Source: Periplaneta americana
Lineage: Eukaryota > Arthropoda > Insecta > Blattodea > Blattidae
DNA: 64,000 nucleotides
Reading direction: 5' to 3'
Assembly (NCBI RefSeq): GCF_040183065.1
Contig: NC_091131.1
Location: 104,684,830 to 104,748,829, forward strand
Part shown: piece by piece, positions 20,996-60,763 of the stretch
Layout of the letters: every line of letters begins with the position of its first letter
Position numbering within the stretch: the first letter of the stretch is position 1
Position numbers and translations under genes: made by a program
Notes under the pieces: generated by a model
Databases searched by the model: none
Told to the model about the DNA's origin: nothing
What the model saw: only the letters and a program-made list of their open reading frames with translations

Positions 20996-21039
20996 AGTAT
21001 TTTAATGTGCTCAAAAGGTTTCGAATACACAATTGCTTT

Positions 21040-21139
21040 TAATTAATTAACTAGTGGATTTACTAGTGTTAATTATGTAAGAATTGTCCGGCAGGATTAC
21101 ATAATTAACACTAGTAAGTCCACTAGTTAATCAATTAAT
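21040..21139. repeat. ~100-bp palindrome just after the satellite
   Basis: The left arm starts TAATTAATTAACTAGTGG and the right arm ends CCACTAGTTAATCAATTAAT. They pair over about 41 bp around a spacer of roughly 15 nt (GAATTGTCCGGCAGG). Such near-perfect symmetry suggests a tiny foldback MITE or a recent local inversion. Confidence 0.8.
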
Positions 21140-36957: not shown

Positions 36958-37071
36958 TATTTCTTCCTTTTTCAGAGAACACATTAATTTCTTATTTTGG
37001 CAACAATGTGTTTCCTTAATAAGGGCATTATTCAACATCGTTGAAAGTCCATACATCTTCTTGAGTTTGTT
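36958..37071 (-). CDS. Coiled-coil gene, exon k (114 nt, tentative)
   Basis: The acceptor is ATCTGTCAACAG and the donor is ATA|GTAAGT. It encodes 38 residues, starting NKLKKMYGLSTMLNNALIKE and ending SLKKEEI. Leu 3, Leu 9 and Leu 13 fit the module pattern loosely. It is the most downstream exon found. No stop codon lies before the donor. Confidence 0.5.
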
Positions 37072-40000: not shown

Positions 40001-43000
40001 TTATGAACGGGATTATTTTTATCTTCTTTCATTATTTTATATCTTGCAGAATATGAACTAGTAAGGCCATCTTCTTAACAGACATGTAAATTTAAATCCT
40101 TGCTTATTTAAAACTATTACACGCAGACATATTTTATAGTTAACTTTTTTATTGAAGAAAAGCAGTAAAAATAGCGGGATAAATATGTTTATTGTATTAT
40201 GGAAGATTCATGCCACATATTAAATGAATACGAAGAAAAGAAATGTGCAGGCCTACATCATTTTTAATATTACGATCATCAAAACGACATCGTATCATAA
40301 AGAAAAATAGATAAATTTATATTCACGGCACTTTTCACATGCAAAAATCAAGGATTATGTTATAACACATTTGAAAAACTACAAACTACAAATAAATATA
40401 TCTACAACTCTCATAATAGAATTATTTAAGTACTGTATAGTTCTTACCTGTAAGTGGTAAAATCTCGTTTCACATCTCCTTTTGCCAACTACACTTTCTT
40501 CCAAAACAGTAGTCATTATTTCCAAAGTACGACTTTTTTCATAATTAAGCTCCAACTGGAAAAAATATAATCGCATATTAAAATCATACCATAAAATATA
40601 GGTTATACAGAAATAAAATTAGTACTGGTACTCATACTAGCCATGACACAGACTACATTTCTCATTGAGGGATCACAACCTGAAAAGGAAGGTCATACTC
40701 AGATTTAACATTTATTATAGAACAAATAATACAAGCGAGATGAGAATTTAAGTTACCAATATGCATATTATTTATAGATTACGAGAAGGCCTTTGATAGA
40801 GTATCTCGTGAAAATATGTCGAAAAGAAGTTTTCCATGATATATAATAAAAACCATATAGAGCCTGTATTATAGAATAACCGCAATGCATCAACAAGGGA
40901 GCAGGAATAAACTGTAGAATACTGAGAATAAATTAAGTTATTAAACAATCTTGTCCAATGTCATTGGCTATTTTTAATACATATAGTGACAACATCATAT
41001 GACAATGGCAAGAAATTTAAAAAAAATTATAATAGGAAACTTTGTTTTAAATACTCTACCATTTTATTTGCAGATGATTACTCTATCTTGAGTGAAAAAA
41101 AAAATAAATCTACAAATTGCAGCCAATAAGCTGAATGAAATTGTAAAACAGCATAATATGAAAATATCTGAGACAAAACTAGTAAGAAGACAATAACATT
41201 TTTAGGAGAAAAAAACACATGAGGCACAAAGTAATGACAATCGCCTGGATAATAGTACAAGTACTAGAAACAATTTCGACTATTTGGGAGCAAACATATT
41301 GTACTGCCAAAAGGAAGATATAAACATTAAACTGAGCAAGTTTTATAGAATGTGCAGAACAATAAGATGTGCACTAAGGAAAAGAGATGGAAAGAGACTG
41401 AGATGAATTTTATAAATTTATGGCAGTATCAGGACTAACATATGGGTCTGAAAATTGGGCAATTAATATGGCGAACAGATAAAAAAAAATAGAGACAACA
41501 GAGATGAAACTCTTACATGTGGCAACAGTTGTAACCCCTCTAGATAAACAAAGTAGTGAAAATATCAGGGCACAATAGAATATCTTTTAATCTCACAGAT
41601 AGGATAACAAAAATGAAACACCTGAAGGATGCACAAGGAAAGAATCCAGAAGATGACACTTCGGCACCACCCACAGAAACGAAAAAAAATATTGGCCACT
41701 CATTGAAAAGATGGCAAGACTCATTCTCTTGATATGGAAACAGGCAAAACAGAGAATCAGGCCTAAATCCATGAAAGACGACGACGACGACGACGACGAC
41801 GATGATGATGATGATGATTATAAACATAAACACTCACCATTGTTGTTGTTTTCTAATGCCAGGCGTTTGACAATAAAGTCATTTGACCTCTTGCACTCCA
41901 ATATTTTTCAAAGATATTGTCATAGTCAGCCAATGAAGCACAGATTCTGAGGTGTTCCGAATCCATTTCTTGGTTTGATTTGCACAGCGGGCAGTTGACT
42001 GATATATTCCAATTCTATGCAGGTGCTTGGCTAAACCGTCATGGCCTGTTGCCAATCTAAATTTAGCTACAGACGATTTTCGTCGTAATTCGGGAATTAA
42101 CTGTGGATTATGATGCAGAGAGTTCCATTTTTTTCCTTGAGATTGTGTTATCAAATTTTATTTGTTGTAGTCTAAGTATGTAGATTTAATAAATCTTTTC
42201 ACAGAGTAACACGTAGATTTAGTAACAGGTCTGTAAGTAGCAGTGCTGCCCTTCTTTGCTAAAGCATCTGCATTCTCGTTACCCAGGATTCCACAATGGG
42301 ATGGTATCCATTGGAATATAATTCTTTTATTGAGTGTTATTAATTGTGAGAGCATTTTAGTTATTCTGCTGTTTGAGATTAAGATGTTTGTGTAGAGACT
42401 ATCGATAGAATAGCTGCTTTGGAATCTGACACTCACTCACTTATTGTACAGTAAACGAAGAAACATCCATTTCAATCACATGATCACCACAAAAGAAATT
42501 CTTAGTCGTAATGACTGCCATACCCAGCAGAAAATTTAACTCTGTTCCATAGAGGCTTAGTGAGTCCAATATTGTCTTGAGTTCATTCTGTGTTATCTTA
42601 AGAGGGGTTATCGTAAGACTCAGGTCTTAATCTTAGAATCTTAGCTGACTTAAAAGATTAATAAGCATAAATCTCTTGTCACCTTGATTCGTGGACCTAA
42701 TCCCTAATGTATTTTAACTTTAGTGAAGTATTACAGATTAAAATGTACTGGATAAATCTCCTGTCTCTGAAACAGCCGCAGGAAGGCATGTGCCGAGAAA
42801 TTCACTCTGCAACAAGAGAGTTTGCATTAGATACTAAGGGAATTTCCTTTTCAGAAATAAAAAATGTGTGGATGTCGGGACTCAACACTTTCAACATCAT
42901 CTTCTAGCTTGGTAAGTGTTCTTAAATAAAGTTATGTATTTCATTTTTATTTTTAATGTAACAACAATTAGTTGTAATGATGAGTAAGTGACTATGAGAG

Positions 43001-46000
43001 TCTCTTGCGAGCCACATGACAGAAGCTGATGACCCAACTGCAGGCAGTTAAAAGTGCTGCTGCTTAATGGTAGGCACACTGTAATAATGATTCAAAGGCG
43101 CACCATGAGCTGAATGACTAGAATGTCTGCTTTTCAAGCTGCAAACACAACCTTATATACCACCCAGAGCAGTAGCGGCTCGTAGTTAAAGGCTCTTAGG
43201 CGGAGACGCCCCTATAAAAATCTGCAACAATCTTGACATTTGTTTGTGTTTAATAGTAGAATAACAATTTTCAATAGAGGAGAAACATCGAAATTTTACT
43301 CAGCTCGTTCGTTAATAATGGTCAATATATTTGGAATTGTTGTTTTTTTTTTTAATTTTATTGGGTTATTTTACGACACTGTATCAACATCTCAGGTTAT
43401 TTAGCATCTGAATGAAATGATGATAATGCTGGTGAAATGAGTCCAGGGTTTAGCACTGAAAGTTACGCAGCATTTGCTCGTATTGGGTTAAGGGAAAACC
43501 CCGGAAAAAACCTCAACCAGGTAACTTGCCCCGACCGGGATTCGAACCAGGGCCACCTGGTTTCGCGGCCAGATGCGCTGACCGTTACTCCACAGTGTGA
43601 ACGGAACTGTTGGTATCGATAGATGTTTTTGGAATAGGTTATAGCCTATAGCCTAGTAATAACAGAGGCTCAGCCTTTTACTGTATCTTCCGCACAATAG
43701 AAACAGGATGGGGTGGCTTCCTAGTGGAGTCTGGCTAATAAGGGTACAGCTAAGGCGTAGAGATCTACGCTTTGAGTTGTTGCCAACATTTCCTAGCTCT
43801 GATTTTTAAAAAACTCTCTTGGAGAAGAGAAAAGAAACAACGTCTGACCCTCCATTCTTGAGGTTACATATCTGCTCTCTCATTCATCTTACGGTAGGTC
43901 ATAGGCCTAATTGGCATTTTAGGACAATATTGCGATGATACGATGAAGGAGTCATTTAGTTATTCGTTGACACAATTGGTATTCCTAGTATCCCATAAAG
44001 TGAAATTTTTTCAAACTCCCGTCAGGAACGGGAAAACAACACAACGGAAATTCTAACGCACGAATTAGTTTTGGCTTGTCCTTCGTAATACGAGTATTGG
44101 TATTGTATGCAGTTGTGAACCTGTGATTGTGAGAACCGTTTGAGAGTGTTTATTTGAGAACAATGAATTGTGTGTGTAACATATCGAAAGAGAGAAGGGC
44201 CGATTCTGTCTACAAGCAAATGAATTAAGGTAAGTCAAGTGCCCATTATATATATTATAATAACTTATTGTTAAAAATTCCCAGTTACGGAAATACACGA
44301 ATAAACAAATAAAAAATAAATAAACAAATACTAATGCTCGAGGCTCGACTGACCCATAGATTACAAGTGTAATCTGCAGTAGACTAAGATAGTGTTGGGA
44401 AATATCTTCTCGGGAGTACTTTCATTTCCTTTACAGTCAACATTACCAATTTCACTCGACAAACACTCTCCACTTAACTCCACTCTAAACCTCATCTAAA
44501 AGTATGATTTCACAGTGAAGTGTACGAGCTTCGGTGATTTTCAGAGGAGACAGCTAGTAGCAAAGAGGGACCACTAGTGTTGACACTCACTAGTTATCAT
44601 AGAATTATTATGTCAGTCCGAGGCTCACTAGTTGGCCAGCTGTTGCATGGGCAGTGATCTGTGTTATCTGGTGACCGTTATCGAACCATCTGTGTCATTT
44701 CCATGATATCTCTGGGATCGCAAAATCGTTCGTAGATTCACTTGGTCGTCTCATCTCTCCCTCCTGAATGTTGTACGACATCACAGACATACTTCTACAT
44801 ACAGTCTACATGTGGATAAGACATTCATCTGCCCTCTCTACATTTATACACACAGACAGTATTCGTTTCTGTCACGTATGTACATCGAAACTTACACTGA
44901 ATGGTCAAAATTGCCCTAAACTTATGTCATAAGATAAAATGTGCCTTCTGCTGAATAGTCGCCATTTTCTGATTAGTTATGGATATAACAAAAACACCAT
45001 AGTAGCGGTAGGTAAGTACTCCTAATAATGTGCATTAACAATTACTTTAACTTAACACTAGTCCTGTAAGTGTTTAATACAGTATATCTAACACATAATA
45101 ATTATGTACTATAAATTATATATATAAAGTTATATTTTAAATATCAATTAAGTTGATTATTACGAACACTTCATGCAAACAGTGCACCAATATTTTTAAT
45201 TTATATTTATCTACATATTAGTCGAGGGAAATGCTACGGTTTGAATAAATTTGATAAATTGAAGGCCTGGTGGAATAAGAATCTATCCCAACCTTCCATC
45301 AAATTAAATTTTTTTGCAAAACACACTGCTTCCCTTCTTGGTGAAAGAGGAATCGTTTTTCTCAGAAGTTTAAAAAGGTAGGATAGGCCCTTCTGCCAAC
45401 AAGCCCTTCAATTAGATGAATGTTTACATATCTTCGTCATTCCTGCAATAACCTCTTACGTGACATATTTATCGATTTTCAGTTTTTTGCTCTATTAAAT
45501 AACTTAAATAGTAATCCGGTACAGCAAATAATAAAATCTCCTGTATGTAATTATATTTCTTTGTTTCGAAAGTGTAAGAATTCACAGTCTCCTATGTACG
45601 GCTGTCATAGGATGAATAAATGTATTTTTTTTTTCTACTGAAAATTTTTACATTTTGCACATAGGAGTTCTTGCAGGAACAACGAGAATATAATTGTTAG
45701 ATTATCGAATTTCCCAATATATTAGCCATTAAAATCTCGAATTATTTTACGAAGATGTTGTACTACAGGTATATAAAATGTAAATAAATTTTATAGTAAA
45801 AAATTGTACTGTAGTACAGATCCAGAAACAAAATTTGGGTGGTGCAAATATATATTTTCTACATATACCTGCAGTTGTGCGTTCTCTTTCTGGTATCTTT
45901 CCTCTATGAGTGAAATGTCTTTCTTATATTCTTCAACTAAACCAATCATAATACGTTCCTTTTCTAATGTCTTTAAATAGTTTACTGTATCTTGATATTT

Positions 46001-48530
46001 TATCTGTAACAAATGAAATTAAAAATTCATTCTTAAAATGCATCACAAATATCAATTAAAATTTCGATTCAACTTCTTTTACCTGAAGTTCTTTAAATTC
46101 TTTTTTCACAAAAGACTGCATGTCTTTAACTTCATCTACGCTTTCATTGAAATTCTTTGCAGAGTCACATATTATCTTTTAAATTCTATAAAAAACATTT
46201 AGTTATAAAAGCATATACTACCAATGCCACTTTACATTAACAAAATGTCTCTTATTATACTTCTTGTACATTATTTTGTACTAATAAGGAAATAAAATTC
46301 GAGTTTCACAAAAATATCACAACAAGAATGTGTTATTTAAATGCATCAATCCATAAATATTTACCAGTAATGTATTCATTTCCTTCTGCATAAACCTGAC
46401 ATGAGCCTTCTCTCCCACCAAAGAATGTGATAACTGCTTTGCGATGTTTTTCTCATTATCCAGTTGTGACTGATAAAATAAACAAAAGTTACAATTTGCA
46501 GTCATTAAAAAAATTAGAACAATTGCAGACTATCCTTACAAATTAAATACTATGCTCACATATTTATTCATAAAATTCGTCATGAAAGATTGTACAGTTT
46601 CATGTGAATTTTATTCTTTACAAGTACATTAATTACTGGTATAATTTTAGCTTTAAACACCTTTTGATAAAGTAGAAAACTTTTCTACAATTGAAGGGTT
46701 TTCTGGAAAACAACTATAGTCCAAAAACATACATTTTCAGGAGAAACAAAAAACAATTTGACATAGGTGTTATTGACACTTACGTATGAAATTCTTCTTG
46801 CCATTTCTTAAGGTGTTGTAGAAACTTGGGAAAACTGAAATACATTTATAACTTAAATTGCCTCATAGAAATACATGTGTAAATGTAGGTAACTGTGGAC
46901 AATGGTTGTTTTAAGAAAAAATACTTTGTTGTGGCTGAAGTGTGCTTCTCCTTTAATCTTCTTTTTCTTTATTATATCCTCTTTCTTCTCCTTTCGTTGT
47001 TTACGTTTCTTCCATGGGGTTACTTCTGCACCTAAATATGACACCATAACTAATACAACAATTCACGACCTAAAGTATTTTTTAAACCACTGAAAATTTT
47101 CATTCTTATAACATAGGACTATGTTTTTTTTTCCACTAACGAGTAATTCAGTAGATGGTTGCTACAATACGCTTACCACATGTTTAATATCTCAAATTTG
47201 CATTTTTTGGACTATTGTTGTTGGGTTTTTTTTTATCTTCAATTTCAAGTGTCTAAATGTATGTCGTAAGAAGCAGCAGAATTAACAATCTTATTATCTG
47301 GTTTACCTGCAGTTCGTGAATTTCTGTCTCACATATTTCAGTTCTTCCATTTTTAATTTTCTCGTTCTCTTCAGTACATAATCGTTTGTTTTCTATTAAT
47401 ACTTCAATTAGCCGTTTCGAAAGTTGTAGCTCATTCTCAAATTTCATCTGAAAAATGAAATTGATTCACTAATTTAAAAATCTAAATGACTAATGACATG
47501 AATCAAGGCTGTGCTAAGTTGCGAAGTTATTCATAAATTTTTATACAAGAACCAAGAACTGATTGACAAATGTTATTCACAATTCATGCAATAAATTCAA
47601 TTAATTGTATGACAAACTATATAATCGGCAGGACACTAAAGATGTTTGTTTAAATGTCGCACCTTTGTACATCTTTTTGGAGTGGTTACAAATGTTGATT
47701 TAAGATAAAACTTCCATTACCTAATTGTACTCTAAAAGTAATGTCTCATTATAATGTATTTTATTTCATATATTAATATAAATATACTAATTTATAGGAA
47801 CTAGTTGATATATAGTGTACGTACTGGCTTGCACTTGTAGCAGCCTGGAGAACTTTGTACCTAGTTCATTAGCATCCTAGTATTCCTCTTTCCTTCCTCA
47901 AATGTTTCCAAATATAAAATATGGTAGATAAAATGCTCACCATGTTCGTCACTAATAACACGGAAATTTTGCATAAAGGAATATAAATGCGAGTGCACAA
48001 AATGAATCTGAAATAAAATATAAAATCCTACAATTTTCTGGTAGTTGTTTGATTTATAGTTTACCAGGAGAATACTTTCCATGCCAATGGTTCTACTTTA
48101 ATTAAAGTAAAGTCAACTGTTATCTCATGTGTCTCTTGGAAAGTCTCTTATTTATACCTAACAAAAATCGCTTTCTTTAGTTTTGTTTCACTTAAACAGA
48201 CAATTTTTTCTGCACATACATACTAGTGTCCTGCAATGTTCGAACATGAGAGAGGCAACCAAGACAAACTTCGTGTTACTTCATATGAAAAACTAATCAT
48301 AATATGTATTCTAAAATCTTTAAGTAATTAAAACATGAAGGGGTGAAAGTGGAGGACAGCGAATATTTTTATAACAAGGTGGAAGAAACATAACAAGCTT
48401 TCTTCTTCAGTGTTTTTTTATATGTATGTATGCATTTATTCACACTGCAAATGGGTATATACCCGGTGGCAGTGGTAACTAATTACACTCAATAATGACA
48501 ATTAATAATAAACACAGCTAATAAAAAACA

Positions 48531-48576
<46 letters not shown>

Positions 48577-51500
48577 TAATAATAATAAGGAGCATCCTAA
48601 ATTAAATGAAGCATGGTCACTTAAAATAACATTTAAAGTAAATCTAATTCGTATCTTAACCCTGAGTTCGAACTAAGACCCACGAATGTGACAGATTCAT
48701 ACCTGCACAAGTACATTTCGGCACTACACTTATTTCGCTGTCAACTCACTCACTGCACTGATTCTACCTGATTTCACTAACACTTCTAACCATTTCACTG
48801 TTCAAATACTTTGCACAGCCACTTCACTGACACCAACACACTTCACTTGCACAATAGACTTCACTTGCACAATAGACTTCACTGACACTACACACTTCAC
48901 TGACACAACACACTTCCTCACTGACAGAACACTTCAAATAACAAGATATCAATTACACACTTTAAGTAGTGTGTATAATGTACTACCGTCTATTAGTAAA
49001 GTCTTCTTTCAGGCAAAAATACGGTCAGATTGAAACATAATTCCTCGTTTTAAATGTTACTATGATTTAATTTGGCAAATGCTACTATACAACCATACAT
49101 AACATTTTCTTAATTTCCATAATAAGATGGTAATATAAAATTTGTTTTTATATTTGTTATCAGCTAAAATAAACTCTTATTGAAATAATGAAACACACAG
49201 TAGGGAACAAAATTGTGCATATATCAGTGTTTTTTTTTTTTTTGGTAAGATTTCATAATAAACCTTTGCAATATTATTATTTTCCTGTTTATTTTCATGC
49301 TTTAATTTAAATTTTTCTCATAAAAAAGGAAACATTTAAAACATAATTACTTACTTTATAAACAAAATGATTCAGAAGTAAAATGAAAACAATGAACTTT
49401 ATAACCGAATTTACCTTTGTTATTAATATTTTATCTTCGTAACTTTTTCCAATGTTTTTTAACTCCTCTTGCAAAGCAGCAGTGTTAGACTCGGTCTTAT
49501 TCAATTTCGCTGTAACTTCATTTAAATTACTTCTTTGAAGCTTAAGCATCACCTGATATAAAGAAATAACATTAATATATGAAAGTGATATTCCCTTAAA
49601 AATATAAAATTATGTACCGTACATAATTCATTAAATGACATTCTCTTCATTGTTATCACTGTTATTTGAGTCAGTTTCTAACCACTGTAATTCTTTAGTG
49701 ACAAATTTCTTCTGCGTCTCCAATACAAAGGACTACAATACAGTTTGTATAATTTCGTCATGATATGTAGTTGCACTGATCTATACAAAAAAAAGTGAGA
49801 AATGACCCAAGGTTTAACATGCACTGTATCTTAGGTCGCAGGCCACATAGCACTGCACCTTGTGATTATATTTAAGAATGTTATTGAAGAATGAGCTTAT
49901 ATTTGCCTTTCCTTTCTCACAATATTTGGCTGATACATCATAAATATATTTGCTATAGTACAACCAGATTTAAATATTTATAAATAGCAGTAATGTTGTT
50001 ACATTAATACAATTACATTGGCAACATGATGTGTGCTTAGATTATTAAAGCTACAAAAATACCGACTCAAAATACTGTGACAGTCGGGAGTCGATCGCGT
50101 CCCACAGAGGTCGGGGGCGCACGAGAAAAACGAGCGATACAGTGAAGGTTGCGGCCGCTCGGGTCTGGAGGGGACAGACGTAAGAGGGGGGCGCGAGGTG
50201 GCGGCGCGAACGCGACAAAGGGTGAGGAGAGAGTAAAGCAGCTGGTGACTGAGGAGAGAAATCCAGAGAAGCCTGGATAGGCGTTATCTTCTAGGCATCT
50301 GTCGACCGACCGCGAACTCTCCAGAAGCTATGGTTTAATTATAAATACAACACGCGAGTGAACTTGAGCAGAGTTGTTGTAATCGTTGGACAGCAAGCTA
50401 GCCTTGTGTAGCAGTGAAGCCAGCTTCGAGACCGGAGTTCGACTTGAGTTGTGTCCGTAACTGTGGAGCCGGAAGTCCTGAGTTTGAGTGCAGTGGACCA
50501 CAGTTGGGGGACCTGAGTTCGAAGTTCAGCAGATTGTCTCTGAAGGTCTGGGGTTCGAGATACTGTGAACTCGAGTGACTGAGCTAGAAGAACTAGCCAA
50601 GGCAAACGAACTGAGAACTGACAGTTCTGATTTGTAAATAGTGCTCTGTGAACATTAGTTAAGATTAACAGTTCATTGTTGTTCTCAATAATCCAAGTAA
50701 ATTGTCATTGTCGTCTGTGGAGTGCAATAATGAATACTGTGTTACAGTGTGGAGTGGAGATCCCATTGTTGACGGGAGTATTTAAAATAAATTATAGAAA
50801 GTAATTATTGTTGCTTTGAATAAAAGTTACATTGTTGAGTTGGAATAAATTTACAATACGATAATATTTTCAAATACATTCGGCTGAAATATTGTTTATA
50901 AATAAATCGGTCAGTACTGTAAGCTGTCCTTTCAACATTAATGAAATTATAAACTCAACGTTTTCCCTAAAAAAAAAGTGTTTATTAAATAGAACAGGAT
51001 TTTATTTTATTTTGTATTATTGTTATCTTCATGATTTTCATTTAAACTTATTCTTCATTATACTGTTCAAGATGCTAGATTAACTTCAACTTCTGAAGAT
51101 GAAGATTCCCTTTTCAGTTGCAGCCGATGCCTATCTACACAGAATGAACTTTTGGCCCTATTATTATCTTTCCTCGTAGCATATTAAGCTTCAATTTCGA
51201 CCTTCTCTAGTGTGTTAGTAAGAATTCTGGTTCTGCCACGTTTCCTTCCCCTGTAACAGAGTTTTTAGGTAGAGCCTTTGGATAAGGACGTATTTCTTCT
51301 GAAGGCCTGGTAATAGAAGTAATAGGCCTACATGAGCTGTCATAGCATTAACAGAGGTAGATGTTTGCGTGACAGGAGTTGGAATGCCAATTGATATACA
51401 TAAATCTACTGACCATGGTCAGTCACATAATGCACTTAAAATTGGTCATCGTAGAAACCATTCTGGTGCACAAGTCATATTCCTGTCACTTTAAATTCAT

Positions 51501-54500
51501 ATAGAATATTGCAAGGCACAAAGGTTTTGGGATAGATTTTGCCTACAATTTCAGCTACATCATAAATGATTATTTTACTTCCAGGATTAGAAAACATAAA
51601 ATCACTGCATGTTGAATTACAGTATTTTCCGGAGGACCTGTAGCTTGTGGCTGATACAGAGAGGAAAAGTGACTATCATTAAGTCACTGGTTGCTTCAAT
51701 TGTTAAGCGCTTTCCTACTTGTCTAATACTAACAGAGGCTTCTCATCTTGTGAAGGCTTTGCTTGGACGATAAAATGCTTAAAGAATGTCACAAATAAAT
51801 TCTGGCTGACCATCCATTTTGATGTGCTCCACCAAATGTTGCCAGAGAAGCTTATTTCAGCATAAGGTTTCTTCAAATGTAGACAAGTAAATATCATCAT
51901 GGGTGCTAATGCATTTTCAATGGCATTGACACATCCAATTATTTACATACCAAGTATATGAGTTAATTTCATATATCTTGTAAATAATAGTTAAAGAAAA
52001 TAAACTACAATCAGGAATATAATTAGCAGTATGATATAGAAATGAATTGTTGCAAAATGCATAAAACATGTAATAAGGAAGTATGCATCATCCCACTGAC
52101 ACAAATTTCTTCATCTAATAACTTGCAAATTCTTACTGCTATAATGAGTTCCATTTAGACATTGAATTTTTTTTAAATGTTCATTTATTTATTTTTTATT
52201 TTATTGGGTTATTTTACGACGCTGTATCAACATCTCAGGTTATTTAGTGTCTGAATGAAATGAAGATGATAATGCCGGTGAAATGAGTCTGAGGTCCATC
52301 ACCGAAAGTTACCCAGCATAAATGTTAATTTTCCCTCCCATTACCTAATCGCATCTGTTGCTCAATGTTAGTTCTCTGGTCTTCCATCCAGGTAGCCCAG
52401 TTCGACACCCGATCTGGTTGTGATTACAATTTGTGTTGTAGAGTTTTTCTCGGGATACTCCATTTCCCTCTATCATTCTACCAATACTCATCACCTCGCC
52501 CTTATATCATCTATCATCTGCAATAATAATTAAAAATAGGCTAGGGTTTTTTATGCTGATACAGGAAGGGCTTGGAGCTTGGATCCTGGGATGTATCAGG
52601 TACTCATCAAAGCATGGGATCTGACTCTTTTAGGCAGGATGACCCACCTGTCAGCATCAGGTTCACAGATACTACCCAAGCCATCTGTCGGAATTGAACA
52701 ATTATCACTTAAATAGGCCACACATTGCCTCTGATTGAGGTTCTGGGTGATATGTACATCTATTATCAGCCAGTACAGCTCACTTGACAATATGTGTCAG
52801 AGGAAGAACAATGTATGCATCTGAAGTCTGATTAGTGTAACATGTAGACTAGCTATTTGGTGATGTATGTAATGGAGAGGGAAAGGAACTGGCCATCCTA
52901 CCCCATTATCTCCTGGCCTAGTTGCCTCATAAGTGGTGCCTTGTTGGTACCACTTCTGAGGTTCAGACTTGTCTTTGAACAGTTGACTAAACAACAACAC
53001 AGGCCACACAATGGGCCAATGTAGCCTAAGTGCATGTAACCATTCCAGGTCCAGCACTTCAAAAAAACCACGTCATTCCCCATCACTTAAACCTTAGATT
53101 CTTATTATATTATATAATTTTATTTGTATCTTTCCTGGTTTCTTGTAGAGAATTTTTCTAATTATTTGCCTGTTTTATTTACGTATAAATTTATTTGTTT
53201 ATTTATTTAAGACATAATTTGTTTGCAAGGTAACAAATAATATATTGTTCTCCATAATACATATGTTACATAAACGCATTTTATTTTTATAACAGGTATC
53301 CAGACACATGCCAGTACTGGTCAAATTCGTTACTCTTTAAGCATCACATTTTTAATTTTGTGACTATTATCATTTTACTTACCTGCAATACCTGAAGTTT
53401 CTCTTGGCAATCATTTCCTGTATCTTTCTTCTTCTTAATCAATATGTCAATATTATGTTTTGCTTTATCAAGTTCTTCTTCCAGTTCCTTAGAAATATTT
53501 TTCTCAATGCCAATTTCGAGCTGAAAAAATGCATATAAAATCACAACCTTCAGTTGGAAAGATCAATGAATAAATTACAACACATTTACTAAATTTGTTA
53601 TTTGCAGTTCAATAGAGATAAATTCTGGTTAGAAGGTTGTTAGCAGTTTAATAAAAGTATAGTATCTATGTGAAAATTAAAAATGTTGATAGTATATGCA
53701 TCTTTCTTCTGGCATTTATTTTCCTTTTTACAGTAGTATATTTTCGACAATTCTGATCAAAGTTATTGTATGTATGTATGTATGTACGGTATCTATCTAA
53801 AGCTCTTGATTTAACAATGAAGTTATTCTCCTTCGTGCTTTCCAATATTTCCCTGTTTGACTTTGAGAGGGAAATGACGTTACAGCTAGTAAAATAGTTG
53901 AGGAAGAATGTCTTTTATTAATCATTGCAAAGAAGTGAAAGAGAATGCATAACCACGATGGAAAAACTACTGTCTACGCGTCTACTCTGGCCATCCATAT
54001 TATAATTAAAATTATCAGTTTTTACAGCAATAAAAATCGTGTACTGGTACTGTATTTGACTAAGTAATATTTTTGCATATATTCTGGGAAAAATTTTGTA
54101 TAAGAGCATAATTCTGTTACGTTACAGGAAAGTATTTCATAGAGAAAGAGATGTTACGAAAAATATTACACTGTATAGAAAACTAATCATGGAATTTTTC
54201 TACGTTTGTTTATCAGGAGACATGTTGAGGGAGAAAATTAAAGTTACTGTCAGAATTTCTCTGAGAAGAGTAATTTGTAAATACTACAAACATGCATACA
54301 CATACGTATAAAGAGCAAATTCTGGATTAAATGGATTAATAAGAGAGAATGAGAATACCATACCGGTAATTGCTGATTATTTGTAGTTTCTGGAGGACAT
54401 CTAAATAATATTAGTAGACAAAAAATCATAATAAATAAAATTAATCTAGCAAATAAATTATAAAATTACCGTACTTATGTCATACAAAACATAACAATGA

Positions 54501-54580
54501 GTACGAAACTACGCCCTATGAATAGATGACAAGAAAACTTTTTATAGACTAGAACAGTTCTTCTAGGATTATTACCTGTT

Positions 54581-54622
<42 letters not shown>

Positions 54623-55806
54623 CCGAAAATAATGTTAAATAGGCTGTAGTGAACAGCACTGAAATGTATAGCAGTGTTTCTATTACCATGATCTTTATCA
54701 ACCTTCCCTTCTTCCATTTCACTTCCTAGATTTCGCTACCTGCCCATTCTTTTACATTGAGTCTCTCCTGTCACTACTTCCCCTTTTCCTTTATTCTCCC
54801 GTCCTCTCCATCACGACCAGGTTCCCTGTCGAGCTCTGATCTATCATGTTGAAGCAAGTATTAAAATATAAGATCCACAAAAGCCTCAATAATTCAAAGT
54901 TATCAATTCCCCAATAACAATTCCTATATGAGCCACAGAAGAATAAGCAATTAAATAAAGACTTTAAATTGGTTTGACGTATACAAATTAAACTCGCAAT
55001 AATACCACGGAATGGGTGAGTGCTAGTTATTCTTTCTCTCGATGATCCTTTGAGTAGTGTTTCCTAAATTCAAAATTGCATGTGACCTTATACTCACAAG
55101 ACTGCATCATCATTCAGGGAATTAAAATATAACATTACATACAAAACACAAAACACACTACAAAAACATCTAAACATACAGACAAGACAAACAAACACAA
55201 TTTAACACAAGTTTACAAATTAACATGCAATAGTTGTAATGACTTCTATATCGGAGAAACTGGGAGATCTTGTCAAAAAATACAAGGAACACACCACAGC
55301 CATAACCAAATCACACAATACTTCTATCTACGGAGAACACATCAACACCAACCACAACTACAGCAACAGACATGGGAGTCCTATGCACTGAACCAAAAAA
55401 CCAGAAACTAAACATACTAGAACAATACGAAATATACAGACATACAAATATACATCCTCAACACAACAAAATTTCAGAACACACACCTTTTTGACACAAC
55501 ACTACCAAACATAAAAGCACCCCACCAAGGCACCAACAAGAAGAAATCGGAAACAAGTGCAGGGCCTCACTATAAATCTGACAATGGTGGAAATTAAGCC
55601 GAAACTTGTCATAAACTAAGGTAAAATACCATAACACCGTAATTATTTCGAGTAGGCTTAACACAGGAAAGTTAAAAAATTTAACAAATCATTAGAAAAT
55701 ACGATTTTCAAGTAGCTTTTAGAAATTACTCAACAGTGAATAGGACTATTAGGAAGGACAATAAAATGTAGAATATAAGAAGATATATAGAAAGATGTGG
55801 AAAGGA

Positions 55807-55838
<32 letters not shown>

Positions 55839-58800
55839 CGATGATGGCAATGATGACGGTGACAGTGACAATGATGACGACGATGACAACGACGACGACG
55901 ACGACGACGATGATGATGATGATGATGATGATGATGGTACCTTACAGAATAATGTCTACATCTAGTAAGAATTCTTAGCAAAGATATATTAAAACACATT
56001 TGAACTTATTTCAAGAGGAATACTGAAGAACTTAAGTGAATGTCCAAAATAACTGGAATTACCGTTTGCAAAGAAATCCGTACAACAAAAGGCTCCAGTT
56101 GGGGAGATTTTGCTAAATGTGTCTTAGTTAATAAGTCACTGATATATTTTACACTATGGAATTTCGTACAACAAACTTCAAATCTTAATTGTAATTATTC
56201 TTACCCGTAAAATGTTGTATTTCTCTTCAAAACGCTCTTTCATATTAACTATTCTGTCTTCAAGTTTACTGGTAGTATGTTCTGATCGAATCAGTTTATC
56301 TGCTAATTCTTCTGATTTATTTCTTTCGTTATCAAGTAGCAACTGAAAAATATACACATAACTTAATTCAAGAATGTTTCCTCAGTACCAGTAAGCAGTT
56401 ATTTAATTTTATTATTTTAATTTTATAACATTATTTATAGCTCTATGTAAAACATCAATCGAAGTTTGTAAAGGAGTCTACCTCAACATGATGCAACTTC
56501 GACACATAATACAAATATTTATGAACTCTAAGCAAATTATTAGCAGTTTGAACAACATTCTATTCTCGAGTCTTGATGTGAGTTTAACTACATAATAAGA
56601 GTACCAGTATATAACTACTCCTCCTAGTAATTTTAGTAAGTTTAGAATATTATGTAGTACCTATATATTCTCTTGCTTGGCGTCAGATCTTCTGGATTCG
56701 GACTCTAAATTATACTGATTAAATTTCCAACTTCTTTACCATGTTAATATTTGGGATTTACCTTGCTTGGTAAATCCTAAATATTAACACAGTAAAGAAG
56801 TTGGAAATTTAATTTACCTTGCTTGGTAAATCCTAAATATTAACACAGTAAAGAAGTTGGAAATGTAATCAGTGACATATAAGTGTTAAAAGTGTATATA
56901 GAAACATGAAGAATCATATCTAAATTATACAGGAAAGCTAGAAGGCGAATGGAAAACTTCCAAGTGCCTGGGCAATAGATACTAACTTACTACTATATAT
57001 TCTTCTGCTTCATTAACATTTTTAAGTAGCCTACTAACATAAAGGTTTTGAGATAAGGGATTCTTATCTGCACAAAAATTGCAATTCTTAAGTTCTCCAG
57101 TGTCCACTGTATTTTCTGGCATGAGAAGTGAAAGGCGTAAATTCCGAGATTGCTCTATGCAATGAATGAGGTCAATCCAGATAGGCAACATCAGTTTTGT
57201 GAGAGCTTTTTACAAATGTACGAAGAAAGAGAAGCTTTTCAAGATTTAATTGTTTGATCTGATGAAGCCATTTTTAAACTTAATGGTATTGTTAACCAGT
57301 GTAACTATGTGTACTGGGTATATACTTTCGTTCACTCACACATAACAAAGGGGTTTATGAAAAGGGATCCTTTCTATTTCTGCCTGAAGTATAAAAGGGT
57401 AGTGGCTAGCACTCTTAGCCTGGAGGTTGTTTGGACTTAGAATATTCACAACCAAAAATATTATAAACAGTTGTAACATTTAATTTCTCTTAAATAAAAG
57501 GGTATGGAGATAATTATACGAAAACGTTTATTTAACTTTTTTCGTCTCATGTAAGAAACAAAATTTTTTTTAATTTGTTTTGCTAAATCTTGAGTTCATT
57601 ATTACTTTTTTTTTTTATTTTAAATAAAGGACTTATTAATTAAAATTTCTGTGCATCATTCTCAGATTCGCAGATACGAACATGAACAAAATCTGTCCAA
57701 TAGTTTAGAAGAAATCACTGTATGCAGACGGCATACTGAAGCCACTTTTTCGATATCAGTGACACTGGAAACGTGATTTCCGCGAAAATCGCGAAATTGA
57801 TTTTTTACAGCATCACAACACTTTCTCTTTATACTTGGTAAAATCAGAAAGTAAAAATATAAGAAGAAAATTCAGATACAGTATAAATATTTACCTGTAA
57901 CGACTTTATTTCCTCGTCATATTGCTCTTCTATATCTTTCATCGCCTTCTCCAACACATTTGCAATATTCTCCGTTTCGTTAACTCTGAACAAACATCTT
58001 GAATAACTACCTTTCACGTTCTCTAATTTCACCTGGTTGAAATATACAAGCCATTTTGGTACTCTCTTTCTTAACAGTATTTTACATAACATTTTTTCAT
58101 AAAAATTTGCTTATAAAAATAACGAGGTACATCCAGGATTGCCAGATTCTCTCGTCAGAAATCCAGGACAGGTGATGATACTGCGTACATTAATGTGACT
58201 ACACGTTTGAATTAATTTAATTTTTAATAGGTACCATAACTGATTTTATTCGTTTTATTAGCTCAAGTAATTATATAGGGCCTAAACTTTTAATTTTGTT
58301 AAATTTTTGCTAAATTATGAAATTTTCTTTGAATTATTGATAAAGTCTGGAAAAATAATGTCATATTACAGCCTCATCTATACAGAAAAATGCATGATAC
58401 AATGTTTAAATTCTATCAATATTACATCAACTTCCAAAGAGAATAAAGAATAAAGATACTGTATAATACATCGTTTTTATTTCAATACAACCCAACAGTA
58501 GACACTAGGCAGCACTGAGCAAAAATTGTATTTTTCCAATCTTCTTGACATTCCGGGACAAATATAACTCAATACAGGACACAACATTAAAATCCAGAAC
58601 AATTCTGGAAAATCCAGGCCATCTGGCAACCCTGGTACATCACTGATGAAGCAAAACGAATAAAACAAAAAAGTTTAACATTCCTGCAAATATTCACATT
58701 CGACAGCTTTATTATAAGCTTAAGAATACATACATAAATGTTTCCCTTAAAACAATAAGCTATCTACAAGAACGGTACCTATACTCTTCTTTAAAACCCC

Positions 58801-58903
58801 ATTACAAGACATGTTTTTCTTCTCTGAATTTCAAATACTCTGGTGTTCCATATTAAAATGTACATTTTTATGAATTTTCATAGTATGTCCATCATGATCA
58901 TCA

Positions 58904-58939
<36 letters not shown>

Positions 58940-60763
58940 TATCATCATCACCATCACCATCACCACCTTTCACTAGACAAATTGTGCTACTTGAAAGCTA
59001 TATTATACAGAGGCATTCATATAAAACTCATGATCTTAATTATATGTTTATTTTAACAAGAAGGATGCTAGTGATGTTGTATTGCGTCTTAAATGTACAG
59101 AGTCCCTGGGAGATTACTTTACCTTTACAGTAAGTGCTGAAAATGCCCTCTGTCTGCCTCAAGGCACAGCTGAACACATCGTTCCATGTTTCTGGCCGTT
59201 TGCTGGAGCATTGAGTTGCCAATACCATTGATTTCGCTTATGATGTACTCCTTCAGTTCATTTAAAGTCCGAGGGTGTGTAGCATAGACTGTTCCCTTCA
59301 GATATCCACACAGGAAAAAGTCTGGTGAAAGTACCCTTGACGCAGCTCAATAACATCCAGTTGCTTAACGAATCCTATGAAAATGTGTCGGTACTGTGCG
59401 TTGTTCCAGTGGCGTATACTGGTTAAAGGGTTTGGGCTACCGCTGACCCTATTATTACACAAAATATATCTAACAATTACTTTAATTTTAATTACTATGG
59501 TAAAACTAATAATACAAAATTATTACATTATGTTATATTATAAACTTTTTCTTTTGTAATTTCCTTGGGCTACCGCCGGTAGCCCGGTAGCCCGCAAAAT
59601 ACGCCCCTGCGTTGTTCACTGTTCCGTCGAAAAAAATTGGATCCACTATTCTCTCTGCTGATAGTGCCCACCAAACTCCTACTTTCAATGGGTGCATAGG
59701 CGTTTCACGAATGCCAGTGGATGTTGTGTGGCCCAAATGTGTGTGTTCTGTGAGTTTACACAGCCACATATGTGAAACCATGTCTTGTCTGTGAACCATG
59801 TAATGGACACTATGCCAGGATTTTTAACAATGGTCAACTCGAACCACGACAATATTCCACTCTTTTAGCCTTACCTGGCTCAAGCAGCTCATGATCAGAC
59901 GTCAACCTATACGGTTTCAAGCTAGCCTTCTTCACAGCTCTCTGACACATCGACGAGTACCTGGTCTCCTGCGACAGATGCCTTAATGACTCATGGGGTG
60001 ACTGCTGCAGTCATTCCCAAACGTCTTCAGCAACTGCCGGAACTTTTGGCCACCAAGATCACCAGACTTCTTCCTGTGGGGTTACCTGAAGGGAACAGTC
60101 TATGCTACACACTCTCGGACTTTTAACTATGTGAAGGAGAACATCACATGCAAAATCAATGGTATTGACGACGCAATGCTCCAGCGAATGGCCAGAAACA
60201 CGGAACAACATTCAGCTGTGCCTTGAAGCAGATGGAAGGCAATTTCAACACTTAATGTACAGGAAAAGTAATCTCCCAGAGATTCTGTACATTTAAGATG
60301 TAATACAACGCTACCAGCATCCTTCTTGTTAAAATAAGCACATAATTAAAATCATGAGTTTTATATGAATCACTCTGTAGCATACAGATTCTCTACTATG
60401 CATTAGTGTAGGTTATGAAACTAATCCATGAAGTTACTGATGCTCCTACATTGAAATATTACCTCATATTTTAAAACAATTTCATAATGCAAAAACTATA
60501 AAATATAAAATGGTTTTAAGACAACACATTATATTGAAAAAATAATATTATAATTAATAATGAAAGTATTTAATGATCTAAGTAAATTATTTGATGAGAT
60601 CACAATTTTAAATTATTTACCATACCTGTAGTGAATTTATTTTCTTGTCACACTTTCCTTCCATGTGGTTGATCATATCGGCCAGTAAATCAGTTTTCTC
60701 CTCCAATTCCTTCTCTCTGTCTACGTATCTTGATTGATTAATTTTCACATTTTCTAATGATTT
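36958..60763 (-). CDS. Modular coiled-coil protein gene built from ~46-codon exons (partial)
   Basis: I do not recognise this gene. Exons in transcript order are 60626-60763, 57895-58032, 56205-56342, 53383-53520, 49415-49552, 47307-47447, 46365-46469, 46083-46175 (less sure), 45869-46003, 40448-40555 and 36958-37071. All introns are phase 0 with GT donors and AG acceptors, so any exon can be skipped without a shift. Together they give about 450 residues of charged sequence rich in Lys, Glu, Leu and Asn, predicted as a long coiled coil with no Pro or Gly clusters. Aligned at exon starts without gaps, positions 3 (Leu/Ile/Phe), 5 (Asn), 7 (Lys/Arg), 13 and 17 (Leu) recur, and most modules end in LQ. 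No start or stop codon is visible, so both ends lie outside or were missed. A structural, cytoskeletal or tethering role is only a guess from the coiled coil. Confidence 0.72.
37072..38089. other. Intronic, unassigned
   Basis: A+T-rich with no recognisable element. Around 37870-37990 the sequence is less A+T-rich (GCTGCCATCTAG, CTGCCATCTCGTG) but not identified. Confidence 0.45.
38090..38706 (+). pseudogene. Fragment of an arthropod transposon-associated protein family
   Basis: On the + strand, three frame-shifted pieces appear in order: NLESGRKNIQLEKLIASEDV then LLPPIHIKLSLIKQFVKAAG; VNIKEEVFVGPQIRELQQDS then KEKRAWTCFKNL; and KVRFLDSQLD and, shifted, LADYCWNIL. From memory, these blocks occur in the same order in a widespread but uncharacterised arthropod protein family that is probably transposon-borne, whose hallmark is SDEHGERFHQDI. 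That hallmark is deleted here but survives at 47865-48082. Confidence 0.55.
38413..38499. repeat. Hairpin MITE, ~25-bp arms
   Basis: AATTGAAGGGTTTGCTGCAA (38415) is mirrored by TTGCAGCAAACCCTTCAATT (38479) around a ~35-nt centre. It interrupts the protein fragment at 38090-38706. Its terminal AATTGAAGG resembles elements at 45257-45419 and 46687. Confidence 0.7.
38707..40447. other. Intronic, unassigned
   Basis: A+T-rich with short poly-C at 39257-39272. No protein or terminal repeats recognised. Confidence 0.5.
40448..40555 (-). CDS. Coiled-coil gene, exon j (108 nt, short)
   Basis: The acceptor is ATTTTTTCCAG and the donor is CAG|GTAAGA. It encodes 36 residues, starting LELNYEKSRTLEIMTTVLEE and ending RFYHLQ. 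The usual end motif is kept, so the deletion relative to 46 residues is internal. Confidence 0.7.
40720..41815 (+). mobile_element. Decayed LINE with (GAC)n(GAT)n tail
   Basis: Reverse-transcriptase motifs survive on the + strand: CILFIDYEKAFDRVSRENM (about 40770-40825, palm motif A) and ADDYSILSE (about 41072, the -ADD- motif C). Then come NKLNEIVKQHNMKISETK, FDYLGANI and NIKLSKFYRMCRTIRCALRK. Many stops and frameshifts. It ends in (GAC)n(GAT)n at 41775-41815, which I take as its 3' tail. Confidence 0.75.
41838..42620 (-). mobile_element. LINE 3' end with RNase H domain
   Basis: On the - strand, 42436-42200 encodes IIFQWIPSHCGILGNENADA followed by LAKKG, the C-terminal signature of the RNase H domain carried by I/Jockey-type LINEs. 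42154-41880 continues with FRLATGHDGLAKHLHRIGIY. The upstream RNase H half is frame-broken. The 3' end is a short (AAC)n at 41838-41850. Its tail faces the tail of the LINE at 40720 only about 20 bp away. Confidence 0.78.
42621..43342. other. Intergenic/intronic, unassigned
   Basis: No gene. CAGTAGCGGCTCG at 43173 resembles the terminus of the hAT at 26820, but no matching second end was found. Confidence 0.4.
43343..43602 (-). mobile_element. tRNA-derived SINE 'B', 10-bp TSD
   Basis: Same layout as the copies at 17447 and 23446. The head is at 43602 and the A+T-rich 3' end at 43343-43390. GGAATTGTTG (43333-43342) and GGAACTGTTG (43603-43612) are a one-mismatch target duplication. Confidence 0.9.
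43613..45256. other. Unassigned sequence
   Basis: No gene or repeat that I can name. 44620-44760 is relatively G+C-rich. Confidence 0.5.
45257..45419. mobile_element. Candidate MITE
   Basis: AATTGAAGGCCTGGTGG at the left and CCAACAAGCCCTTCAATT at the right are mirrored over about 17 bp with two to three mismatches. It is related at its termini to the hairpin at 38413. Confidence 0.5.
45869..46003 (-). CDS. Coiled-coil gene, exon i (135 nt)
   Basis: The acceptor is TTTGTTACAG and the donor is CAG|GTATAT. It encodes 45 residues, starting IKYQDTVNYLKTLEKERIMI and ending KENAQLQ. Only 79 bp separate it from exon h. Confidence 0.75.
46083..46175 (-). CDS. Coiled-coil gene, exon h (93 nt, uncertain)
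   Basis: The open segment ends EFKELQ with donor CAG|GTAAAA and contains SAKNFNESVDEVKDMQSF. The only in-frame acceptor is a weak TTTAAAAG at 46176-46180; the better TTTATAG just upstream would put stops in every frame. It is either a shortened exon using a new acceptor or a dying module. Confidence 0.45.
46365..46469 (-). CDS. Coiled-coil gene, exon g (105 nt, short)
   Basis: The acceptor is TTTTATCAG and the donor is CTG|GTAAAT. It encodes 35 residues, starting SQLDNEKNIAKQLSHSLVGE and ending NTLL. Its start aligns with the other modules and it lacks about 11 residues (one hendecad) near the C-terminal end. Confidence 0.7.
47307..47447 (-). CDS. Coiled-coil gene, exon f (141 nt)
   Basis: The acceptor is CATTTTTCAG and the donor is CAG|GTAAAC. 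It encodes 47 residues, starting MKFENELQLSKRLIEVLIEN and ending TEIHELQ. The first codon is ATG, but the splice acceptor and alignment with other modules argue that it is internal. Confidence 0.75.
47865..48082 (-). pseudogene. Fragment of the SDEHGER-type transposon-associated protein
   Basis: On the - strand the reading gives IHFVHSHLYSFMQNFRVISD followed by EHGEHF and YLETFEEGK. The pattern HFxHSHL...SDEHGE.F is the hallmark of the same uncharacterised family as 38090-38706. Only about 50 residues remain, in the intron between exons e and f. Confidence 0.6.
48530..48590. repeat. (TAA)n microsatellite
   Basis: About 17 TAA/ATA units with one interruption near 48575. Confidence 0.95.
48820..48935. 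repeat. Imperfect minisatellite, ~20-bp unit
   Basis: Repeats of CACTTCACTGACACAACA and CACTTCACTTGCACAATAGA alternate, with two perfect adjacent copies of ACTTCACTTGCACAATAG near 48840-48880. Confidence 0.8.
49415..49552 (-). CDS. Coiled-coil gene, exon e (138 nt)
   Basis: The acceptor is TTTATATCAG and the donor is AAG|GTAAAT. It encodes 46 residues, starting VMLKLQRSNLNEVTAKLNKT and ending DKILITK. It is one of the modules that does not end in LQ. Confidence 0.75.
50076..50855 (+). mobile_element. Solo LTR, 780 bp, 4-bp TSD
   Basis: It begins TGTGACAGTCGGGAG and ends AATAAATTTACA, flanked by ATAC (50072-50075 and 50856-50859). It has a TATA box TTATAAATA near 50338, followed by an initiator-like GAGCAGAGTTG at 50369. 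It is homologous to the solo LTR at 27942, mainly in the last two-thirds, with a more G+C-rich and different U3. TG...CA ends with a 4-bp duplication fit Gypsy-type or similar retrotransposons. It lies antisense to the coiled-coil gene, between exons d and e. Confidence 0.88.
50860..51079. other. Intronic, unassigned
   Basis: A+T-rich. No feature seen. Confidence 0.5.
51080..51910 (-). pseudogene. Pogo/Tigger-like DDE transposase fragment
   Basis: The clearest block on the - strand is 51840-51700: TSKWMVSQNLFVTFFKHFIV, then KPSQDEKPLLVLDK, a stop, and ES. This matches the pogo-type segment leading to the second catalytic Asp (usual form LLLDNH). The Asp is kept but the following Asn is Lys and a stop follows. 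Less clear pieces continue to about 51080. It is a different lineage from the copy at 1390-2890, judging by sequence. Confidence 0.65.
52196..52318 (-). mobile_element. SINE 'B', 5'-truncated copy
   Basis: Only the 3' half of the element is present, with TTATTTTACGACGCTGTATC and ACCGAAAGTTACCCAGCAT. The tRNA-like head is missing. AAATGTT on both sides (about 52180 and 52319) suggests truncation during insertion. Confidence 0.85.
52340..52530 (+). mobile_element. tRNA-derived SINE, relative of the one at 10669
   Basis: GTTGCTCAATGTTAGTTCTC (box-A position) and TAGCCCAGTTCGACACCC (box B) are followed by GAGTTTTTCTCGGGATACTC, which corresponds to the body of the copy at 10669. Well diverged. 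Confidence 0.55.
52531..52761. other. Unassigned sequence
   Basis: No feature recognised. Confidence 0.4.
52762..53003 (+). repeat. Interspersed repeat 'X', copy 3
   Basis: It starts near TTATCAGCCAGTACAGCTCA and ends GTTGACTAAACAACAACAC. Comparison with copies 1 and 2 fixes the family length at about 240 bp. Confidence 0.8.
53383..53520 (-). CDS. Coiled-coil gene, exon d (138 nt)
   Basis: The acceptor is TTTTTTCAG and the donor is CAG|GTAAGT (consensus). It encodes 46 residues, starting LEIGIEKNISKELEEELDKA and ending EKLQVLQ. Confidence 0.8.
53768..53787. repeat. (TATG)n microsatellite
   Basis: Five TATG units. Confidence 0.85.
53800..54580. other. Intronic, unassigned
   Basis: No protein, SINE or inverted repeat recognised. 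Confidence 0.5.
54582..54622. repeat. (GAT)n microsatellite
   Basis: About 13 GAT units. No LINE was recognised directly upstream on either strand. Confidence 0.95.
55190..55650 (+). mobile_element. Penelope-like element fragment with GIY-YIG endonuclease
   Basis: On the + strand 55212-55270 reads YKLTCNSCNDFYIGETGRSC, the start of the GIY-YIG endonuclease of Penelope-like retroelements with its conserved CxxC and FYIGETGRS. After a frame break, NILEQYEIYRHTQIHPQHN and ISEHTPF (55415-55490) match the linker seen at 33850-33640. The 3' end has AAGCCGAAACTTGTCATAAA and TAATTATTTCGAGTAGGC. The reverse-transcriptase part is missing. Confidence 0.78.
55808..55935. repeat. Compound (GAT)n/(GAC)n microsatellite
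   Basis: About 128 bp of GAT, GAC and GGT triplets, purine-rich on the + strand. It translates as poly-His on the - strand, which is meaningless. Confidence 0.95.
56205..56342 (-). CDS. Coiled-coil gene, exon c (138 nt)
   Basis: The acceptor is ATATTTTTCAG and the donor is CGG|GTAAGA. It encodes 46 residues, starting LLLDNERNKSEELADKLIRS and ending EKYNILR. Open throughout with a strong charge pattern. Confidence 0.78.
56716..56874. repeat. Palindrome plus ~64-bp tandem duplication
   Basis: TTCCAACTTCTTTACCATGT followed by TAATATTTGGGATTTACC (about 56727) is the inverse of GGTAAATCCTAAATATTAAC followed by ACAGTAAAGAAGTTGGAA (about 56769). That right arm is then repeated directly at about 56823-56868. 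A hairpin with one arm duplicated, probably by replication slippage. Confidence 0.85.
57215..57350 (+). pseudogene. Mariner-like transposase fragment
   Basis: The + strand reads FQDLIV, a stop, SDEAIFKLNGIVNQCNYVYW. The pattern SDEA.F.LNG.VN..N.VYW is the first catalytic Asp region (SDEA) of mariner-like transposases. Only about 40 residues remain. Confidence 0.6.
57895..58032 (-). CDS. Coiled-coil gene, exon b (138 nt)
   Basis: The acceptor is TTTCAACCAG and the donor is CAG|GTAAAT. It encodes 46 residues, starting VKLENVKGSYSR and ending DEEIKSLQ. It shares LENVK and the LQ end with exon a, which is direct evidence of exon duplication. Confidence 0.78.
58134..58634. mobile_element. MITE with 7-bp TSD (hAT/P-type)
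   Basis: The ends are CAGGATTGCCAGA (58134) and TCTGGCAACCCTG (ending 58634; complement CAGGGTTGCCAGA). GTACATC lies directly outside both ends (58127-58133, 58635-58641). CAGGGTTGCCAGA-type ends with a 7-8-bp duplication fit hAT or P-type non-autonomous elements. The interior is about 475 bp, non-coding, in the intron between exons a and b. Confidence 0.85.
58898..58945. repeat. (ATC)n microsatellite
   Basis: About 14 ATC units with later imperfect CACCAT triplets. Confidence 0.95.
59130..59990 (-). pseudogene. Mariner-like transposase, decayed
   Basis: In order on the - strand: KKASLKPYRLTSDHELLEPG then KAKRVEYCRG (59930-59840, DNA-binding/linker); a frame-broken block around 59800 with the WF..DE region; ETPMHPLKVGVWWALSAERI then VDPIFFDGTVN (59700-59620); a 203-bp MITE; then QYRHIFIGFVKQLD and an arm with the last catalytic region and MLQQTARNMERCVQLCLEAD (about 59225-59165). 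Multiple stops. Confidence 0.75.
59407..59609. mobile_element. 203-bp hAT MITE with perfect 8-bp TSD
   Basis: It begins CAGTGGCGTATACTGG and ends TACGCCCCTG (complement CAGGGGCGTA), the CAGNGGCG type of hAT terminus. CGTTGTTC is directly repeated at 59399-59406 and 59610-59617. TGGGCTACCG-like phrases are mirrored inside. It splits the mariner-like transposase within FDGTVN. Confidence 0.92.
60626..60763 (-). CDS. Coiled-coil gene, exon a (138 nt)
   Basis: The acceptor TTTCTGATTAG...CAG precedes AAATCATTAGAA, and the donor CAG|GTATGG follows. It encodes 46 residues, starting KSLENVKINQSRYVDREKEL and ending KKINSLQ. It is the most upstream exon I can find. It pairs best with the next exon, sharing LENVK at the same position. 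Confidence 0.75.

Follow-up and report, generated by a model that had tools for sequence, protein, structure and literature searches.

The window analysed here, a stretch of 64,000 nucleotides of Periplaneta americana (C15:104684830-104748829 of a 3.23-Gb assembly; coordinates above 64000 denote flanking sequence outside the window), holds part of a coiled-coil gene on its minus strand. Ten segments at 36958-60763 (minus strand) are exons of one real gene. Its coding region runs past both of these borders, with six exons upstream that lie outside the window and a stop at 35166. The exons, together with one unannotated segment, are as follows.

72333-72476, minus strand: exon, outside the window, phase 0, part of isoform X1
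70800-70973, minus strand: exon, outside the window, phase 0, part of X1
69773-69922, minus strand: exon, outside the window, phase 0, part of X1
68162-68251, minus strand: exon, outside the window, phase 0, part of X1
67310-67435, minus strand: exon, outside the window, phase 0, part of X1
64127-64264, minus strand: 138-nt module exon of the core family, outside the window, phase 0, part of X1
60626-60763, minus strand: 138-nt module exon (46 aa) of the core family, in X1-X4, phase 0, register f to e
57895-58032, minus strand: 138-nt module exon of the core family, cassette skipped in X3 and X4
56205-56342, minus strand: 138-nt module exon of the core family, cassette skipped in X4
53383-53520, minus strand: 138-nt module exon of the core family, present in all four isoforms
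49415-49552, minus strand: 138-nt module exon of the core family, cassette skipped in X2
47307-47447, minus strand: 141-nt coiled-coil exon, only weakly tied to the module family
46365-46469, minus strand: 105-nt coiled-coil exon (35 aa), register f to e
46083-46175, minus strand: unannotated 93-nt open segment with a weak acceptor (AAAAG) and the donor GTAAAA
45869-46003, minus strand: 135-nt coiled-coil exon, without ungapped offset-zero kinship to the 138-nt family
40448-40555, minus strand: 108-nt coiled-coil exon, phase 0, part of X1
36958-37071, minus strand: 114-nt coiled-coil exon, phase 0, part of X1
35166-35180, minus strand: coding part of the last exon (ILRE and the stop codon), preceded by the acceptor ttgcag; C-terminus of X1-X4

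The 16 exons that precede the last one (2115 nt) are all open, in phase 0 at both ends and bordered by splice sites, and when joined they give residues 70-774 of RefSeq isoform X1 (778 aa) letter for letter. The last exon contributes four codons and the stop (35180-35166). Its acceptor followed by ILRE and a stop is the sole such site in the 6 kb below 36958, and it fits the C-terminus of all four RefSeq isoforms. The first-pass annotation had proposed one unrecognised gene of ten or eleven phase-0 segments on this strand. Its ten segments have AG and GT sites, are in phase 0 and free of stops, and are all found in X1 in the same order with identical boundaries, so that the single minus-strand gene agrees exon for exon with RefSeq. 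Beyond 60763 and below 36958, where it had suggested looking for further modules, lie the six upstream exons, one of them the 138-nt exon at 64127, and the last exon at 35166. The word unrecognised has to be withdrawn, because RefSeq already predicts the gene with four isoforms.

Isoforms X1-X4 are Gnomon models, and several Gnomon isoforms at one gene would in general imply RNA support. According to the account of the genome annotation, Gnomon was supplied with RNA-seq data and transcriptome assemblies of P. americana (PMC12774602). The exon design seems to have gone unremarked so far; the gene itself is in the databases. In topic searches (not by accession) of the literature on coiled-coil exon duplication, heptad register at exon borders and cockroach SYCP1, the gene was unnamed among the matches listed.

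Residues 1-69 of X1 have no match in the visible sequence of the locus. A run of exactly 5000 N (72501-77500, outside the window) lies directly upstream of exon 72333, and these residues probably lie within it. When X1 was compared with the whole genome, 19 places were found: its own 16 exons, one plus-strand place in its own intron, and two weak places (E 0.89 and 1.65). At 67461-67523 (plus strand, outside the window, in an intron), the DNA codes for 20 of 21 (95.2%) of protein residues 11-31, and we favour reading it as a local inverted copy of the otherwise unseen first exon. A DNA query gave no genomic copies of its matching part beyond the locus; copies appeared only from query position 105 on. 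An origin of the N-terminus from a LINE or another transposon was considered and dropped, as the genomic copies cover only the later part of the query and not the part that matches the N-terminus. Elsewhere in the introns, the minus strand at 61358-62507 carries, as judged by eye, open frames in two frames that resemble endonuclease and reverse transcriptase pieces of a non-LTR retrotransposon.

A family of 138-nt exons

Five exons in the window are exactly 138 nt long and others are 135 and 141 nt, as the first pass had noted, and the exon at 64127 adds a sixth of 138 nt. These six exons are clearly copies of one exon. Their summed ungapped BLOSUM62 score is 486, against means of -380 for shuffles (z 15.4, 0/2000) and -380 for free shifts (z 10.9, 0/2000). 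Shifts by multiples of 7 preserve the heptad pattern, and their mean is -66 (z 6.3, 0/2000). The best ungapped register is offset zero in 11 of their 15 pairs. For the ten window exons, aligned from the left without gaps over 34 residues, the comparison with shifts by multiples of 7 gave z 4.3 (1/2000). The 141-nt and 135-nt exons have little or no kinship with the module and are not clearly the same module, because offset zero is best in only 1/7 and 0/7 of their pairs, respectively. The earlier view of all ten segments as one duplicated module thus holds for the 138-nt exons, which are clearly one family, and not for these two.

The residues that the first pass had listed as shared are real, but they are looser than described: over the ten exons, Leu3 and Lys/Arg7 are each found in 7/10, Leu13, Leu17 and the LQ end in 6/10, and Asn5 in 5/10. 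The final Q of an exon partly reflects the splice consensus CAG/GT, and the last residue was therefore dropped from the right-anchored tests. When both strands of the window were scanned for open AG..GT segments of 129-147 nt that had at least four of the six shared features, seven rows, representing five distinct exons, came from the minus strand and none from the plus strand. Pairwise identity among the six 138-nt exons is 11-37% (mean 21%), and the DNA that flanks the module exons shows no shared stretches in a repeat scan of 36000-62000. The copies are therefore old or fast evolving. The introns do contain two 83-nt copies (43345-43427 and 52188-52270), 92% alike and outside any exon, which resemble an interspersed repeat.

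The count of ten or eleven segments stands for ten; none of the RefSeq isoforms X1-X4 contains the eleventh (46083-46175). This segment sits between exons 46365 and 45869 and has 31 codons, phase 0 and an LQ end. Within 264 kb, 545 open 93-nt segments precede a usable GT[AG] donor; in likeness to the module it comes seventh among them, next after the six modules, which are favoured in this ranking as part of its reference. Of the 25 segments listed, it also scores highest as a coil. The segment would be an unannotated cassette or else a relic module.

Coil periodicity and register at the exon borders

The X1 protein has a non-coil head of approximately 117 residues, followed by approximately 657 residues of predicted coiled coil and almost no tail. 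In the block of six modules, the hydrophobic period is 3.535 (46/13 = 3.538), with a power of 5.39 compared with a maximum of 2.25 in 500 shuffles. Residues 117-297 and 573-778, outside this block, showed no significant hydrophobic period, and the periodicity is therefore claimed for the six-module block only. The core falls at module positions 3, 13, 17, 27, 31, 38, 42, and 45 (five or six of the six copies) and at position 34 (4/6), whereas positions 6, 10, 20, and 24 are weakly hydrophobic (2-3/6). The spacing 31-34-38-42-45 displays an extra four-residue step at 34/38/42. Each 138-nt copy can thus be described as 13 core layers, five heptads plus one hendecad, running from heptad position f to e. 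This 13-layer pattern agrees with the coiled coil proposed at first, and the period and the extra step agree with its division of the 46 residues. The shift of register expected at each module is present as a regular step. It does not disturb the coil, because the stutter inside the 46-mer (approximately 34-42) returns the register to f at the next exon, making the junction between modules register-neutral.

The same positions recur at the exon borders of the gene. When each exon was fitted singly, the last residue was at heptad position e in 13/16 exons and the first residue at f in 10/16, a number of f-starts that was reached by one of 5000 random border sets. In the ten exons outside the 138-nt family, there are four f-starts and seven e-ends, and much of the register symmetry stems from the shared ancestry of the six exons. 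We scored junctions as the heptad score over the 10 residues before and the 17 residues after each join; the heptad score table and the splice-site weights were set by hand from general consensus patterns and are not trained predictors. Artificial joins between every exon end and every non-adjacent exon start gave a mean score of 8.37 (n = 210), compared with 8.55 for the native junctions (n = 15), of which five score below 6. Random cut sets gave a mean of 5.47 (sd 0.53, maximum 7.15 of 2000), which places the non-adjacent joins at z 5.5. Any exon end joined to any exon start therefore continues the coil about as well as the native junctions do, because so many exons end at e and start at f. 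The junctions created by the annotated skips score 6.7 (X2), 10.9 (X3), and 9.2 (X4). For the exons outside the 138-nt family alone, the junction score was still above random cuts (z 2.7, 6/2000). The exon borders are thus neutral for the reading frame and, mostly, for the coil register.

As a control, we used a myosin-tail gene (PF01576) of the same genome at C6:123092896-123119156. The 11 coil exons examined there are also in phase 0, so phase 0 alone is not unusual for coil exons in this genome. These exons represent 11 of 16 C6 places (27 matches overall); the other five, which lie later in the gene, were left out because their best sites did not give clean phase 0. Their junction score did not differ from that of random cuts (z 0.3, 767/2000), and the registers of their exon starts were spread over five heptad positions, although the borders were called by hand and, with one control gene, the comparison does not give the rarity of the property.

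Identity of the protein

RefSeq describes the four isoforms with the names 'synaptonemal complex protein 1-like', 'DDB_G0290503' and 'uncharacterized'; the first is that of X1, whereas X2 and X3 share another name and X4 is unnamed. Long fast-evolving coils receive misleading automatic names, here three for four isoforms, and neither the duplicated exons nor their register-neutral borders are reflected in any of them. Database searches with a 736-aa join of the protein (7990 scored candidates, E <= 0.01) found only the four isoforms, as did searches with residues 1-125 (52 candidates, E <= 10) and residues 655-778 (236 candidates, E <= 10); these searches relied on exact matches to at most 100 words of five letters and covered proteins whose length was 0.55-1.75 times that of the query, a design that can miss diverged orthologues. 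No Pfam family (hmmscan), PF05483 included, matched X1 up to E 10, and no PDB chain matched it up to E 1. The ten-exon join had given sub-threshold Pfam matches to USHBP1_PDZ-bd (E 0.031) and MtrB (E 1.9), neither of which recurred with full X1. In the whole genome, PF05483 found one place, on C7, at 22.1 bits and below the 23-bit cut-off, in an exon-by-exon search that is weak for split genes. All four isoforms end in SLKKEEIILRE directly after the last coil exon, and a non-coil C-terminal domain is absent.

It is improbable that the gene product forms the transverse filaments of the cockroach synaptonemal complex, as an analogue of SYCP1 or C(3)G would. A transverse-filament protein needs a non-coil C-terminal domain toward the lateral element, whereas the coil here reaches within a few residues of the stop. 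A rod of variable length would also be odd in a filament that fixes a set width, and the differing names of the isoforms look like coil noise. SYCP1 and PF05483, as well as Drosophila C(3)G, do share with X1 a non-coil head followed by a long coil, and their class evolves fast in sequence; unlike them, the cockroach protein has neither a profile match nor the C-terminal non-coil domain. The SYCP1 name, judged by these features, is unsupported. Besides the RefSeq label, this improbable reading has in its favour that a cockroach filament must exist and would look roughly like the present protein. Ecdysozoa are considered to have lost SYCP1, a protein with the conserved N-terminal motif CM1 (PMC5803294), and another protein must therefore do its job. 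Rather better, yet still clearly short of even, are the chances of a structural or scaffold coil of the sperm, cilia, centrosome, or Golgi, all of which commonly contain long coils that evolve fast. A long coil without a Pfam domain and without relatives in the limited searches would fit such a protein; nothing positive indicates any of these structures, and Pfam reports no targeting or GRIP-type domain.

Isoforms and rod length

The four isoforms are 778 (X1), 732 (X2), 732 (X3), and 686 (X4) residues long. X2 lacks exon 49415, X3 lacks exon 57895, and X4 lacks exons 57895 and 56205; each shorter isoform thus misses either one or two complete 46-codon modules, all from the 138-nt family. With a coiled-coil rise of 0.1485 nm per residue, the coil would span approximately 98 nm and one module approximately 6.8 nm. 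We consider it likely that the gene encodes a rod of up to 778 residues whose length is set by splicing, with modules skipped or kept. The helices would pair into a dimeric (or tetrameric) rod, and splicing would keep or drop whole modules. Rod length would then change by 46 residues (approximately 6.8 nm) per module with the helices staying in register, and the protein could serve as a tether or spacer that can be tuned in length to a maximum of approximately 98 nm. The length and the register of a coil are important in such proteins, and arbitrary skipping normally breaks the register. Where exon borders are so placed that skipping spares it, as in this gene, nature offers a case for testing how splicing controls length.

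How far such skipping has a function is another matter. With a probability that we place not far below even, old exon duplication alone explains the register symmetry and the skipped isoforms are functionless splicing noise: the shared ancestry of the six exons accounts for most of the symmetry, skipping keeps the frame so that such transcripts survive decay, and the isoforms stem from prediction. Against this, the exons outside the family are still weakly symmetric, and the phase-0 myosin control lacks the symmetry. Selection for the dual neutrality of frame and register is a more speculative and rather unlikely proposal, in which the gene would be a splice-set ruler, any subset of modules would form an unbroken coil growing in steps of approximately 7 nm, and, if meiotic, the protein could be the missing cockroach transverse filament with an adjustable width. 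A decaying pseudogene or chance open segments are scarcely credible. Such an origin could be read from the lack of an orthologue in the limited searches and from the poor acceptor of the orphan segment 46083-46175, but the 16 open phase-0 exons and their letter-for-letter match to the annotated protein refute it for the present assembly.

The proposed rod with splice-set length can be compared with known coiled coils. It shares with the tail of myosin II a long coil and phase-0 exons, which are the majority in the part of the myosin gene examined; in the myosin tail, however, the borders fall at mixed heptad positions with no register symmetry. Tropomyosin is likewise a coiled coil with alternative exons. 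Its exons are swapped, so that its length is kept, whereas the cockroach gene drops whole modules and its length changes; no homology was found. The alternative exons of tropomyosin are exemplified by exon 2a or 2b of TPM1 (PMC5441184). The closing statement of the first-pass annotation, that common families show no coils of this size with one module per exon, holds for the 46-residue size but does not extend to other sizes: in the chicken BG genes, the cytoplasmic tails are described as 7-residue repeats encoded by 21-nt repeat exons, and BG1 alleles have 13 to 21 cytoplasmic exons through expansion of a four-exon repeat (PMC5043582). As far as that account of the BG genes goes, both systems build a coiled-coil repeat from short repeated in-frame exons, but the BG unit of 7 residues varies in number mainly between alleles, whereas the cockroach unit of 46 residues includes a stutter and would vary in number between the predicted isoforms. 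In the cockroach gene, the repeated in-frame exons that each hold a whole coil repeat are the six 138-nt phase-0 exons with their common 13-layer pattern. Duplicating such an exon of 46 residues and 13 layers would be a simple route by which long rods can grow.

Repetition of a different kind is seen near the other end of the window, on the plus strand at 19193-21042, where the unit IFFLITLAxLQKYRxLSVFLxSxFQ recurs several times in open frames; this is probably a tandem DNA repeat.
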